A DNA stretch of 64,000 nucleotides, from positions 186,001 through 250,000 of the forward strand of contig NZ_AUAR01000001.1 in assembly GCF_000428825.1 (NCBI RefSeq). The letters are read 5' to 3'. The notes beneath the pieces were generated by a model, which made no database searches, was not told the origin of the DNA, and saw only the letters and a program-made list of their open reading frames with translations. Positions 9,171-61,967 of the stretch are shown here, piece after piece (position 1 is the first letter of the stretch; each line of letters starts with the position of its first letter). Made by a program: the position numbers and the translations under genes. Source of the stretch: Desulfomicrobium escambiense DSM 10707. GTDB lineage: Bacteria > Desulfobacterota > Desulfovibrionia > Desulfovibrionales > Desulfomicrobiaceae.

Positions 9171-10355
9171 ATGAACGCACTGCTCGCACCGTTTCGGACC
9201 CGGGACGCCCTGCGCGGCCTGCCCTGCCCCCTCGAAGCCCTGGACACGCCGTGCCTGTTGTTGGACGAGGCGCGCATGGACGGCAACATCGCCCGCCTGC
9301 GAAACCGTCTCGCCGCGGCCGGAGTGGCGTTTCGCCCGCATCTCAAGACGGCCAAGTCGTGGGAGATCTCGCGGCGTCTCATGGCCACGCCGCATGGACC
9401 GGCCACGGTCTCGACCCTGCGCGAGGCCGAGGCTTTGGCGGCCTGCGGCGTGACGGACATCACCTACGCCGTGGGCATCGCGCCGCAGAAGCTTCCCCGT
9501 GTGCTGGCCCTGCGCCGGCAGGGTGTGGACCTGACGGTGCTGCTGGACAGCGTGGCTCAGGCCCGGGCCGTGGCGGCCGCGTCGGACCCGTCCGACCCCA
9601 TCCCGGCCCTCATCGAGCTGGACTGCGACGGACACCGTTCGGGGGTGCAACCCGGTGATTCGCAGCAACTGCTGGCCATCGCCCATGCCCTGAAACCTAC
9701 GGCCCGGCTGCGCGGCGTGCTGGTCCATGCCGGGGAGAGCTACGAGGCACGCGGCGAGGAGGCCCTGGCGGCTGCGGCCGAAGGGGAGCGCGCGGCGGCG
9801 GTGGAAGCGGCCAGGACCCTCCGGGACGCCGGCTGGATCTGCCCCGTGGTCAGCGTCGGCTCGACGCCCACGGCCTTTTCGGCCCGCAGCTACGAAGGCG
9901 TGACGGAAGTCCGGGCCGGGGTATTCGTCTTCTTCGACCTGGTCCAGGTCGGCATCGGCATCTGCGCCATCGACGACATCGCCGTTTCGGTCCTGACCAC
10001 GGTCATCGGTCACCAGCGCGACAAGGGCTGGGCCATCGTCGACGCCGGCTGGACGGCTATGTCCTGCGACCGGGGCACGGCCGGGCAGACCGTGGATCAG
10101 GGCTACGGCCTGGTCTGCTACGCGGACGGACGCCCCGTGGGCGATCTGGTGGTCAGGGGCGTCAACCAGGAGCACGGCGTCGTGGCCCCGCGCTCGGGCA
10201 ACCCGGCGGACCTGCCGGACCTGCCCGTGGGCACGAGGTTGCGTATCCTGCCCAGCCATGCCTGCGCCACGGTCACGCAGTTCGACCGGTATCATGTCGT
10301 CGGCGCGGGCGGGGAGGAGGTTACGGCGGTGTGGCCGAGGTTGATGGGGTGGTAG
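9171..10355 (+). CDS. DSD1-family PLP enzyme (D-threonine aldolase / D-serine dehydratase-like)
   Basis: 394 residues, fold-type III (alanine racemase-like barrel). LDTPCLLLDEARMDGNIARL and FRPHLKTAKSWE contain the PLP lysine. The C-terminal domain ends in ILPSHACATVTQFDRY, whose His-Ala-Cys matches the metal-binding His/Cys pair of D-serine dehydratase and D-threonine aldolase. Predicted reactions are metal-assisted cleavage or dehydration of a beta-hydroxy D-amino acid or 3-hydroxyaspartate. GGAGG lies 8 bp before the ATG, and a good promoter and dyad lie upstream. The next gene encodes an ornithine-cyclodeaminase-family enzyme. The same two families appear as BhcC and BhcD in the beta-hydroxyaspartate cycle, although the other enzymes of that cycle are not in this window. 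Confidence 0.85.
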   Translation: MNALLAPFRTRDALRGLPCPLEALDTPCLLLDEARMDGNIARLRNRLAAAGVAFRPHLKTAKSWEISRRLMATPHGPATVSTLREAEALAACGVTDITYAVGIAPQKLPRVLALRRQGVDLTVLLDSVAQARAVAAASDPSDPIPALIELDCDGHRSGVQPGDSQQLLAIAHALKPTARLRGVLVHAGESYEARGEEALAAAAEGERAAAVEAARTLRDAGWICPVVSVGSTPTAFSARSYEGVTEVRAGVFVFFDLVQVGIGICAIDDIAVSVLTTVIGHQRDKGWAIVDAGWTAMSCDRGTAGQTVDQGYGLVCYADGRPVGDLVVRGVNQEHGVVAPRSGNPADLPDLPVGTRLRILPSHACATVTQFDRYHVVGAGGEEVTAVWPRLMGW

Positions 10356-10366
10356 GGGGTGTGGTG

Positions 10367-10408
10367 TGGACGGTATGGACGATATGGACTTTATGGACTG
10401 GCACGGAC
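10367..10408. repeat. TGGAC periodic array A (direct, 9-bp period)
   Basis: TGGAC begins at 10367, 10376, 10385 and 10394, then CGGAC at 10404. The first four are exactly 9 bp apart with variable 4-bp spacers. It lies in the 75-bp gap between two co-directional genes. There is no inverted partner half here. Confidence 0.85.
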
Positions 10409-11390: not shown

Positions 11391-11398
11391 GGGGGGAG

Positions 11399-11518
11399 TG
11401 GACGAGATGGACTAGAATGGACGAACACGGACCGACACGGACAAAAACAAGCCCCCCGAGATGGATGGTACAGTGTCCATGATAGTCCGTGTCAGTCCAT
11501 CTCGTCCATTCTAGTCCA
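11399..11518. repeat. TGGAC periodic array B (inverted, between convergent genes)
   Basis: Left half: (T/C)GGAC words begin at 11399, 11408, 11418, 11428 and 11438. Right half: the complements GTCC(A/G) begin at 11475, 11485, 11495, 11504 and 11514. The two 44-bp halves are imperfect inverted copies of each other, so either strand could fold into a long stem with a 32-nt loop. It fills the gap between the ornithine-cyclodeaminase-family and LUD genes. It may act as a bidirectional terminator, but there is no T-tract. Confidence 0.85.
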
Positions 11519-11524
11519 TTTTCC

Positions 11525-12184
11525 TCAGTACCCCAGACTCTCCCCCACCAGCACCACGTGAATTCTGCCTTCGTCGCGCTGCCCCTCGATGATGGTCCAG
11601 GCGTTGCAGATTTTCTGCGGGCTGGAGCAGCGGTGGCAGCGGCCGTCCTGGGTGCAGGGAGGCTCGTGGGCGGGGTTCAGGGCGTTCAGGCGCAGGTTGT
11701 TCATGGGCGCGGCGAAGTCGCGGATGCGGTCCATGGCCGATTCCAGGTCGCTGACGACCTTGTTCATGCCGACCAGCAGGATGACCTTCCTTGGTCCGAA
11801 GATCATGGCCGCCACGCGGTTGCCCGTGCCGTCCAGATTGACCAGCCTGCCGTCCAGAGTCACGGCGTTGCAGCTCGTGACCATGACGTCGGCCGTCAGA
11901 CCGCGCCGGCGCCGCTCGTCGCCTTCGGCCGGGGTGAGGCCCGGGACGTAGGGGTCGATGAGTTCCACGCCGGGCAGGGCGGCGATGTCCTTCCACAGTC
12001 CGAGCGACCCGACGGATTCCGAGCCGCAGCGGATGACGGAGCACGGTCCCTGGATCAGGGACAGGATCTGGCTGCGGGCCTCCTCGGCGGTTTCGGCGTA
12101 GCTGCCGTGCATGCGGCGCTTGTTGAGCTGCTTGATGAGGCGTTCGGCGTTCATCTGGCGGAATTTGCGTGTCGGTGCGTCCAT
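11525..12184 (-). CDS. LUD-domain protein (YkgG/LutC-like)
   Basis: 220 residues. The LUD fold is suggested by the order MNAERLIKQLNKRRMHGSYAETAEEARSQILSLI, IRCGSESVGSLGLW, VMVTSCNAVTLDGRLVNLDGTGNRVAAMIFGPRKVILLVGMNKVV, and a C-terminal cysteine cluster (PPCTQDGRCHRCSSPQKICNAW) that could hold a metal or Fe-S centre. LUD proteins occur in L-lactate oxidation (LutB/LutC), but many stand-alone members are uncharacterised. GGAGG 8 bp upstream supports this ATG. It follows the WcbI-like gene by 113 bp on the same strand. It sits far from the lactate operon, so a lactate role is unproven. Confidence 0.85.
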   Translation of the reverse strand: MDAPTRKFRQMNAERLIKQLNKRRMHGSYAETAEEARSQILSLIQGPCSVIRCGSESVGSLGLWKDIAALPGVELIDPYVPGLTPAEGDERRRRGLTADVMVTSCNAVTLDGRLVNLDGTGNRVAAMIFGPRKVILLVGMNKVVSDLESAMDRIRDFAAPMNNLRLNALNPAHEPPCTQDGRCHRCSSPQKICNAWTIIEGQRDEGRIHVVLVGESLGY

Positions 12185-13289: not shown

Positions 13290-14069
13290 ATGGGCGAGCG
13301 GCCGGCCACATTCGTTTTTCACGGGAATCTGCGCGACCTCCTGGGACGGGGGAAGGCCGGGGCCGACGGGCGCGTGACGTATCCAGTCACGCGGCGTACG
13401 TCCGTCAAGGACGTCATCGAGGCTCTGGGTCCGCCGCACACGGAGGTGGGGGCCATTGAGGTCGACGGGCTGCCCGTGGGCTTCGGCCACCTGCTGGAGC
13501 CCGGCCGCAGGATCGACGTCCGGGCCGTGCCCACGCCCTTCGACGTGCTGCGGCCGTCGCCGCTGCGCCCGGAACCGTTGCCCCGCATCGCCTTTCTCGT
13601 GGACGCCAATGTCGGCCGGCTGGCGGGTCTCCTGCGCGCCCTGGGCTTCGACACGGCCTACGACCCGTCTTTGGGAGACGCGGTCCTGGCCGAGCAGGCC
13701 GCGCGCGAAGGGCGCATCCTTCTCAGTCGCGACCGTCTCCTCCTCAGGCGCGGCATCGTGGTCTATGGCCGTCTGATCCGCTCACGTGACCCCGAAACCC
13801 AGCTCATCGAAGTCCTGCGTTTCTTCGGCCTCAGGCCGCCCTTTGCGACCTTCACCCGCTGCCTGCGCTGCAACGACCTCCTCCAGACCGTGTCCAAGGC
13901 CGAAATCATGGACCGCCTGCTGCCCCTGACGAAGCTGCATTACACCGATTTCCGGCGCTGCCCGCGCTGCAAACGCATCTATTGGGCCGGCTCTCACCAC
14001 GAGAGGATGCACGAGCGGGTGGGGAGGATTTGCCGGGAGCTGGGGGGAGGGGAGACTGAGATGGACTGA
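13290..14069 (+). CDS. Mut7-C RNase-domain protein with N-terminal ubiquitin-like domain
   Basis: 259 residues. Residues 1-85 look like the small beta-grasp domain that often precedes Mut7-C (FVFHGNLRDLL, GAIEVDGLPVGFGHLLEPGRRIDV). The Mut7-C domain follows: RIAFLVDANVGRLAGLLRALGFDTAYD has the PIN-like acidic residues, ILLSRDRLLLRR continues it, and a zinc ribbon CLRCN...CPRCKRIYW closes it. The family is predicted to be a metal-dependent RNase. GGGAGGG precedes the ATG. The last codons (GGETEMD) are formed by the TGGAC array that begins here, so the original C terminus may have been altered by the repeat. Confidence 0.85.
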   Translation: MGERPATFVFHGNLRDLLGRGKAGADGRVTYPVTRRTSVKDVIEALGPPHTEVGAIEVDGLPVGFGHLLEPGRRIDVRAVPTPFDVLRPSPLRPEPLPRIAFLVDANVGRLAGLLRALGFDTAYDPSLGDAVLAEQAAREGRILLSRDRLLLRRGIVVYGRLIRSRDPETQLIEVLRFFGLRPPFATFTRCLRCNDLLQTVSKAEIMDRLLPLTKLHYTDFRRCPRCKRIYWAGSHHERMHERVGRICRELGGGETEMD

Positions 14070-14141
14070 GATGGACAGTGATGAACGAACACGGACGGGC
14101 ACGGACGGGGCCGCAACAACGTGACGGGCTGGTACCTGGCC

Positions 14142-16467
<2,326 letters not shown>

Positions 16468-17463: not shown

Positions 17464-17533
17464 GTCCCATCATGTCACATGCCGCTGCGGCCCGCAATAT
17501 GGCCTGCCTTTTCCGGCCGCCGGGCGGCCGTTG

Positions 17534-17574
17534 TGGACGGGATGGACGAAATGGACCATATGGACACCATGGAC
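17534..17574. repeat. TGGAC periodic array D (direct, 9-bp period)
   Basis: Five TGGAC words begin at 17534, 17543, 17552, 17561 and 17570, each exactly 9 bp apart, with the base before every word but the first being A. It sits between two divergent genes, so a terminator role does not fit this copy. No inverted half is present. It lies 27 bp before the start of the next gene. Confidence 0.88.
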
Positions 17575-17600: not shown

Positions 17601-18377
17601 ATGCTAGGCGCCATCGCCGGTGACATCATCGGCTCCGTATACGAGCACAGGCCCATCAAGACCAAGGAATTCCCCTTCTTCGCCGCGGGTTGCCGGTTCA
17701 CGGACGACACGGTGCTGACCGTGGCCGTGGCCGACGCCATTCTCTCCGGGCGTGAATACGCCGAAGCCCTGCACGATTTCGGCCACCGCTACCCCCGCGC
17801 CAGCTACGGCGGCTCTTTCCTGGAGTGGCTGCACGCGCGGGAACGGGTGCCCTACGGGAGCTGGGGCAACGGTTCGGCCATGCGCGTCAGTCCCGTGGGC
17901 TGGGCCTTCGACAGCGAGGACGACGTGCTCGAGCACGCCCGCCTCTCGGCCGAGGTCACCCACGACCACCCGGAAGGGATCAAGGGCGCGCAGGCCGTGG
18001 CCCTGGCCGTGTTCCTGGCCCGCACGGGCTGTTCCAGGGCGGACATGCGTCGGCGCATCGCCGACCTGTTCGGCTACGACCTGGGCCTGTCCGTGGACGA
18101 AATCAGGGCGGACTACGCCTTCGACGTCTCCTGCCAGGGCAGCGTGCCCCAGGCCATTGTCTGCTTTCTGGATTCCGACTCCTGGGAGGACGCCGTGCGC
18201 AACGCGGTGTCCCTCGGCGGCGACAGCGACACCCTGGCCTGCATGGCCGGCGCCGTGGCCGAGGCGTACTACGGCGAGGTGCCCGCACATTTGGCCGACA
18301 AGGCCCTGCGCTTCCTGCCCCATGATCTCGGCATCGTGGTCGAGGATTTCCGTCAAATCTTCATGGACGACCTGTAA
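17601..18377 (+). CDS. ADP-ribosylglycohydrolase-family protein
   Basis: 258 residues. Family motifs are complete: MLGAIAGDIIGSVYE at the N terminus, CRFTDDTVLTVAVADAIL (metal aspartates), SWGNGSAMRVSPVGWAF, DHPEGIKGAQAVA, and AVSLGGDSDTLACMAGAVAEAYYG (second metal site). Such enzymes remove ADP-ribose from arginine side chains (DraG-like) or from other ADP-ribosyl compounds. No draT or nitrogenase gene is near, so a link to nitrogenase control is not supported. AAGGAG 7 bp upstream sets the start. It stands alone behind a TGGAC array. Confidence 0.92.
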   Translation: MLGAIAGDIIGSVYEHRPIKTKEFPFFAAGCRFTDDTVLTVAVADAILSGREYAEALHDFGHRYPRASYGGSFLEWLHARERVPYGSWGNGSAMRVSPVGWAFDSEDDVLEHARLSAEVTHDHPEGIKGAQAVALAVFLARTGCSRADMRRRIADLFGYDLGLSVDEIRADYAFDVSCQGSVPQAIVCFLDSDSWEDAVRNAVSLGGDSDTLACMAGAVAEAYYGEVPAHLADKALRFLPHDLGIVVEDFRQIFMDDL

Positions 18378-22753: not shown

Positions 22754-22768
22754 GGAGGAAGGCAGGCA

Positions 22769-22846
22769 TGGACTTCATGGACGTCATGGACTGGGCTGTG
22801 CATGGTCCATAAGGTCCATATCGTCCATGAAGTCCCATATAGTCCA
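22769..22846. repeat. TGGAC periodic array E (inverted, between convergent genes)
   Basis: TGGAC at 22769, 22778 and 22787 (9 bp apart). Complementary GTCCA at 22805, 22814 and 22823, a variant at 22832, and 22842. It fills the gap between the J-domain gene and the putative muramidase gene, which converge. The arms can pair into a stem of about 25 bp. Confidence 0.85.
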
Positions 22847-27938: not shown

Positions 27939-27951
27939 GGGCGGGGCTGCC

Positions 27952-28042
27952 TGGACCTCATGGACGATATGGACGGGGTTCCCCGAGTGCGCGGAGACCT
28001 GGCCCATTTCGTCCATCTCGTCCATGAGGTCCATCTCGTCCA
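27952..28042. repeat. TGGAC periodic array F (inverted, between convergent genes)
   Basis: TGGAC at 27952, 27961 and 27970. GTCCA at 28011, 28020, 28029 and 28038. All are exactly 9 bp apart within each half. The halves can pair across a 36-nt loop. A standard terminator lies only 53 bp further on, so termination is probably not this array's main job. Confidence 0.87.
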
Positions 28043-28094
28043 TGACAGCCTCCTCTTCTTCCCCCGTTTGACTTTGCCTTCCCCCGGGGCCAAT

Positions 28095-61905: not shown

Positions 61906-61937
61906 GTCCATATGGTCCATCCAGTCCATTTCGTCCA
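61906..61937. repeat. TGGAC periodic array G (direct, minus orientation)
   Basis: GTCCA words begin at 61906, 61915, 61924 and 61933, exactly 9 bp apart. It lies 85 bp upstream of the exporter ATPase start codon and next to the hairpin element copy 2. No inverted half is present. Confidence 0.85.
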
Positions 61938-61967
61938 TTCTTGGGAAAAAGTTGCGCAGGGCGGCCC

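Follow-up and report, generated by a model that had tools for sequence, protein, structure and literature searches.

In Desulfomicrobium escambiense the short word TGGAC recurs between genes at 9- or 10-bp steps, in some places as a direct array and in others as two facing halves, which raises the question of what these arrays are and what they belong to. The main point of the answer given here, a link to one gene family together with a spread over many phyla, could not have been seen in the preliminary description of this DNA, which was made from the window (the whole 64-kb stretch analysed).

Phased word arrays in the window and in its genome

All seven phased intergenic loci that had been listed for the window are present, one of them, 14062, being weaker than was claimed, with TGAAC and CGGAC among its words. 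Direct arrays lie at 10366–10408 (plus strand; four TGGAC at steps of 9, 9 and 9 and one CGGAC at a step of 10), beginning 10 bp past the stop of the gene at 9171–10355; at 17533–17574 (plus strand; five TGGAC at steps of 9, 9, 9 and 9), in a divergent gap 26 bp before the gene at 17601–18377; and at 61906–61938 (minus strand; four words). The inverted site 11399 has a left half at 11398–11442 (plus strand), where ATGGAC-type words are followed by CACGGAC-type words at steps of 9, 10, 10 and 10, and a facing right half at 11475–11519 (minus strand), 5 bp from the end of the gene at 11525–12184, so that three TGGAC and two CGGAC stand opposite four TGGAC and one CGGAC. Two further inverted arrays combine a left half of three words at 22768–22791 (plus strand) with a facing half of four TGGAC and one GGGAC at 22805–22846 (minus strand), and a left half of three words at 27951–27974 (plus strand) with a facing half of four words at 28011–28043 (minus strand). 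At 14062 the left half (14061–14106, plus strand) holds two TGGAC, one TGAAC and two CACGGAC words and the facing half (14147–14172, minus strand) reads GTCCGTG, GTCCGTA and GACCAT; this site is a decayed version of the array. The unit is best put as ATGGAC+NNN (9 bp), frequently followed by CACGGAC+NNN (10 bp), as at 11398–11442 and 10366–10408. A comparison with Rfam gave zero matches inside the 64-kb window.

Three TGGAC words at 9- or 10-bp steps gave 72 matches on both strands of the genome to which the window belongs (G000, 3.78 Mb in 38 contigs) and the reversed pattern gave none, a genome-wide count well above chance. The same pattern matched in 13 of 16 genomes of the genus, with 0 to 72 matches each, and a four-word pattern was positive in 7 of 348 genomes of the class, five of these within the genus. 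Array sites were sought by exact patterns only and tabulated in stretches around the matches, where the G000 matches collapse to 27 sites, or 28 if 14062 is counted. Of 102 halves in five Desulfomicrobium genomes, 84 contain four or five words that can be recognised.

For gene orientation, genes were called by a simple codon-usage gene finder, and 14062 was omitted because it is too weak. Ten inverted sites comprise 5 convergent, 4 co-directional and 1 divergent, and 17 direct sites comprise 8 co-directional, 5 convergent, 3 divergent and 1 within a gene. The proposed tie between inverted form and convergent genes thus fails genome-wide, with 5 of 10 inverted sites convergent and 5 of 17 direct sites convergent too. 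Convergent gaps are favoured by arrays of both kinds, which occupy them at 10 of 26 intergenic sites, while 29 of the 231 pairs of adjacent genes in these stretches are convergent (raw counts).

Two places in G000 deserve separate mention. A five-word array (L064:6019-6060, contig C7) lies within an apparent coding gene, reads VDxVDxMDx.. in frame and has spacers that differ from those of the sister genome G013. On contig C4, two inverted arrays about 0.9 kb apart (L062:9089-9200 and L062:10085-10196) have related loops in opposite orientation, GGGGGCGTCC and GGACGCCCCC, an arrangement that an inverted copy of one element would give.

Change of arrays between related genomes

Both flanks of 17 of the 27 G000 sites were found in an array-bearing stretch of G013, a comparison that covers array-bearing stretches only, the remaining sites thus not being shown empty in G013. 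Array sites are common also to G006 and a few are common to G011 and G015 at ~82% identity; orthologous arrays include 17533 in G006 and both 61906 and 10366 in G013. The gap at 10366 is short and without an array in G002, G012 and G010, and in G015 it holds degenerate GGAC words. Overall, array sites are stable between species at 82–95% identity, and the species comparison of these sites revealed neither target duplication nor recent insertion.

G013 departs from G000 at 35% of spacer bases (n = 108, a figure inflated by inverted loops or shifted units in some pairs) and at 2.1% of word bases (n = 282, which holds for recognisable words only), and the flanks of these sites are for the most part 90–96% identical. 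These values bear out the earlier claim that the word is kept while the spacers drift. The loop between the halves also changes: at 22768 G013 and G006 have it in the opposite orientation to G000 and G015, at 27951 it is inverted in G013 (25 of 32 positions agree after inversion and 7 of 32 without it), and at L070 it is likewise inverted in G013.

An RNA stem at gene ends was among the roles first offered for the arrays. The stretch 11398–11519 folds as RNA at -63.7 kcal/mol (z -6.0), and the four inverted window sites have z values of -6.0, -4.0, -4.9 and -4.4. Good folds notwithstanding, a stem as the selected feature is not supported: spacers of facing arms match at 0.316 at offset 0 and 0.426 at offset 1 in Desulfomicrobium, and at 0.392 and 0.389, respectively, in other phyla, where spacers within one half are alike (0.62). 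Arm pairing had looked positive when true partners (0.378) were set against arms re-partnered between sites (0.284), and the within-site offset control abolished this signal. Since being in register does not improve the agreement of arm spacers, it seems to be the word and its phase, and not the full stem, that are under selection.

Two other RNA-level candidates were rejected. A 3'-UTR element in sense to the upstream gene suits several window sites and fails for arrays that precede a start codon or run antisense to both adjacent genes. AUGGA contains the CsrA motif ANGGA; a CsrA sponge would not account for the change of the whole word between genes, for example to CACGGA, TCTGAC or ATTGAC.

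Spread over phyla and genes at the arrays

With each species represented by a single genome, a scan for the inverted pattern ATGGACNNNATGGAC..GTCCATNNNGTCCAT, in which 24 bases are fixed, matched at least 118 stretches. Among the matches listed are Lentisphaerae, Chlorobiaceae, Chlamydiae, Sumerlaeota, Hydrogenedentota, Cloacimonadota, Planctomycetes, Kapaibacteria, Geobacter and others. The same pattern matched once in viral contigs. The contigs of L297 and L100, classed as viral, bear facing ATGGAC arrays.

Comparison of the ORFs around 119 array loci (the 118 genome stretches listed and one viral contig) showed that the biggest recurring family, found in 12 loci, is a protein gene overlapping or abutting the array. 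Its three members that were scanned (L226, L205 and L258) hold TIGR02436 and then TIGR04258 (4helix_suffix), both above cut-off, the latter at 64.8–66.8 bits against a cut-off of 40; for the array-linked proteins PF05635 stays below its cut-off (29.4–32.2 of 33.8 bits) and TIGR02436 is over its own. The array encodes the linker between the TIGR02436 and TIGR04258 domains.

Within the genus, TIGR04258 occurs in 9 of 16 genomes, and G000 has two genes above the cut-off. One (C11:88070) sits between a direct and an inverted ATGGAC array, and a module of this type in G011 is likewise flanked by arrays. In the other (C2:189351, L312), the coding linker itself contains an inverted array that mixes CACGGAC with ATGGAC words as window site 11399 does, and genes of this type with in-gene CACGGAC-type linker words are found in G002, G003, G012 and G013. 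G015 (96% complete) and G006 (63% complete) have arrays and no TIGR04258 match.

The C11 suffix module (L068:7230-7560) abuts tRNA-Asp in G000 and the G011 module (L176) abuts a tRNA-like fragment; at that tRNA, G013 (L158) has kept only the array and the right flank, and its left side is different. As to a possible mobile cassette, this placement hints at an island boundary and is not decisive. In L335, L345, L346, L353 and others, the suffix proteins have an extra C-terminal stretch with CxxCGKxM..GCSxYPxC motifs, which we take to resemble a topoisomerase-type zinc ribbon. The GxxExxY family (TIGR04256) was a further candidate family.

Arrays at suffix genes and the words they carry

The link was approached from the gene side with 69 of the 78 TIGR04258 matches outside G000 (48 of 51 genomes), all from Desulfobacterota and chosen without regard to arrays. 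A word-blind scan of these loci found an inverted phased array in 22 of 69 versus 1 of 345 shuffles. By a different score, at least six phased copies of one word were present in 18 of the 69 unselected gene regions versus 1 of 128 segments taken from their flanks, and in 46 of 70 gene regions from array genomes (70 of 94 TIGR04258 matches taken) versus 1 of 232 segments away from arrays. No word had four phased copies in 34 of the 69 unselected genes, which include most of a 193-aa-type subfamily.

Arrays and genes also co-occur by genome. TIGR04258 is found in 52 of 395 Desulfobacterota, in none of 14 control genomes and in 39 of 46 array assemblies among the matches listed (three Desulfomicrobium omitted; seven without a match), the base rate of 395 genomes being that of one phylum and unmatched to the phyla of the 46 array genomes. 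Inverted GGAC arrays were scored in 13 of 40 Desulfobacterota with the gene (40 of 51 taken) and 2 of 40 without it, both sets being drawn in serial order; neither gene-free positive exceeds its backwards control, and of the 13 at least G605 has the look of a chance match. For most of the 13 the match is the gene's own array, and Desulfobacterota that have the gene usually have few dispersed GGAC arrays.

Words carried by the genes agree in part with words dispersed in the genome. At least four phased ATGGAC are present on 21 of 70 suffix genes in ATGGAC-array genomes versus 2 of 69 unselected genes, and counted per genome, with genomes that have a pattern match at a fetched gene omitted, on 14 of 33 versus 2 of 48. 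In 19 of those 33 genomes ATGGAC is on none of the genes taken (70 of 94 matches). By gene, the words are GTGGAC, ATGGAC, CACGGA, ATGGGA, AGGGAC, ATAGGT, TCTGAC, AAAGAC, ATTGAC, AAGGAC, GAGGAC and TAGGAC, and paralogues of one genome can carry different words, as in G739 and G743. Many translated linkers are three-residue repeats such as STxSTx or SDxSDx, and another group of genes has the array directly before the start codon rather than in the linker. Dispersed inverted TAGGAC arrays were found in one of 49 genomes, G739, in which a TATAGGAC-type array immediately precedes the start codon of the suffix gene L406; G734, G743 and G755 have genes with TATAGGAC-type arrays, yet zero dispersed matches to the TAGGAC pattern.

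Predicted fold of the suffix protein

Modelled with AlphaFold2 from 10 rows (mean pLDDT 80.1), the L226 protein forms helices at residues 18–37, 43–61 and 70–97 and, in the suffix domain, at 161–193, with a low-confidence stretch at 136–157 that corresponds to the array-coded linker. VIA-align matched the model to two S23-family structures, 2GSC (Z 15.5, rmsd 1.5, 111 residues) and 2RLD (Z 13.5), with the alignment spanning helices 1–3 plus the suffix helix, and to 8UB7_B, a chain of a diversity-generating retroelement (DGR) ribonucleoprotein (Z 11.5, rmsd 3.2, 113 residues). Foldseek gave 2RLD as its best match at E 0.18, and it was on the same list that VIA-align gave clear matches; by sequence, a search of the PDB returned nothing significant for the suffix protein (2GSC at E 0.43). 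The four-helix-suffix protein is thus predicted to be an S23/Avd-type bundle with the suffix as helix 4, and the array would therefore lie between helix 3 and helix 4.

According to PMC4990558, citing Lin 2006, S23p of X. campestris is a homopentameric ring of four-helix bundles. If the suffix protein formed such a five-membered ring, this would go well with the four or five words found in the commonest halves. S23-family four-helix-bundle proteins are widespread; S23p has no known function according to PMC4990558 and PMC10053308, and the latter describes PF05635 as resembling Avd.

Discussion

We consider it reasonably probable that four-helix-suffix proteins (TIGR02436 plus TIGR04258) are each specific for a word and have the arrays as their cognate sites, dispersed in the genome, in a system like that of REP and RAYT with an unrelated protein. 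Each paralogue would be paired with its own set of six-letter words at 9-bp, sometimes 10-bp, steps. A founding array would sit in or beside the protein gene, whether in the helix 3–4 linker, at the 5' end or flanking the gene on each side, and other places in the genome, mostly between genes, would hold additional copies. The suffix protein may bind the array as nucleic acid, with one word per turn and perhaps one word per subunit, and the arrays may spread as non-autonomous repeats driven by the protein, making up a gene-plus-repeat system. Among the roles offered in the preliminary description, a spreading repeat fits best, the spread itself being a putative step.

The arrays could also serve the cell, the protein binding them at mRNA 3' or 5' ends, in autoregulation or in chromosome organisation, with selection keeping the copies. 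Such a regulatory or structural site has a modest chance of being right: it agrees with the 82–95% identity of sites between species, with conserved words beside diverging spacers, with arrays near stop codons and the preference for convergent gaps, and gene-borne arrays, some just before a start codon, would suit autoregulation. It sits poorly, however, with a copy number of 0 to 72 matches among species of one genus, with mixed positions relative to genes (after stops, before starts, within a gene), with the presence of arrays in G015 and G006, where no gene was detected, and with the patchy occurrence of the same word across phyla. Should no dedicated protein be involved, slippage and hairpin template switching might amplify a 9-bp unit as a plain minisatellite. 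Changes of unit number and loop inversions between sister species, and the likeness of spacers within a half in other phyla, are of this kind; slippage, though, predicts neither ATGGAC in many phyla, nor the tie to one family, nor words kept while spacers change, which makes a plain minisatellite improbable.

That inverted arrays are gene-end stems for transcription stop or mRNA protection, their words a by-product, is in our judgement decidedly improbable. Their strong folds speak for it, but 17 of 27 sites are direct only, arm spacers show no preference for register, and a stem needs no identical words across phyla or inside coding genes. The attribution to REP elements moved by a RAYT/Y1 (HUH) transposase draws on two Y1_Tnp matches in G000 and on REPs being dispersed palindromic repeats too (PMC8266576), and is nevertheless barely credible, with PF01797 (Y1_Tnp) absent from the array-rich genomes G013 (98% complete) and G015 (96% complete) and the four-helix-suffix family being the biggest among the neighbours of arrays.

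An extended form of the favoured reading, that of cognate sites for suffix proteins, has a small chance of being right: a word-coded system across phyla, in which each paralogue would read its own six-letter word once per 9–10 bp and the protein would help to copy, invert or rewrite arrays. This would explain why spacers turn over faster than flanks with the words kept, why loops flip and why words differ among paralogues, and the element would be present within its own gene as the array-coded helix 3–4 linker.

Word arrays in and around suffixed S23 relatives, differing by paralogue, offer a concrete candidate substrate for a family without a known function. If the proteins do bind them, there would be a programmable-looking relation of protein to word, of which many phyla hold natural variants, and a system of dispersed repeats whose protein is not a known transposase, with a bearing on the role of S23p in 23S rRNA insertions and on the fold of Avd. 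The suffix protein model has the same predicted bundle fold as Avd of diversity-generating retroelements. Cyanobacterial STRR-type heptamer repeats and DNA uptake sequences are, like the arrays, short intergenic words that are sometimes paired; DNA uptake sequences, however, are not known to be phased arrays, and we know of no cognate four-helix gene for either. A search of open-access papers found no description of a link between arrays and four-helix-suffix genes; subscription papers and database notes lie outside this scope, and an earlier description may exist.

As described in PMC8266576, PMC2817692 and PMC3116915, the REP/RAYT system (REPtron) shares with the arrays its dispersed palindromic repeats, a gene bearing cognate repeats, and repeat sequences that differ by protein group. 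Cognate repeats occur here both beside the protein gene, as for the G000 and G011 genes between arrays, and dispersed, at 28 G000 sites including 14062. The cognate protein of REP/RAYT, however, is an HUH transposase and not an S23/Avd-type four-helix bundle with a suffix, and its repeat is one palindrome of 20–40 bp, whereas the arrays are short words at 9- or 10-bp steps that also lie inside a coding linker.

A comparable system is the intervening sequence (IVS) of 23S rRNA, which has an S23-family four-helix-bundle ORF between stem-forming inverted repeats and is called a selfish element, with mobility suspected and function not known, in PMC4990558. The G000 and G011 genes lie between arrays, and the facing halves of other sites are mostly too close for an ORF. 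The IVS sits in a helix of 23S rRNA, whereas the arrays are dispersed between and within protein genes: the window sites lie between protein genes, and neither they nor the Rfam comparison of the window gave a sign of a 23S rRNA insertion. The arms also differ, being phased words here, and so do the proteins, which have a TIGR04258 suffix after an array-coded linker. In the Coxiella 23S intervening sequence, PMC4990558 places variable-number tandem GACAGAT heptamers just upstream of the S23p ORF, so that here, too, a gene for a four-helix bundle has a tandem repeat containing GAC next to it.
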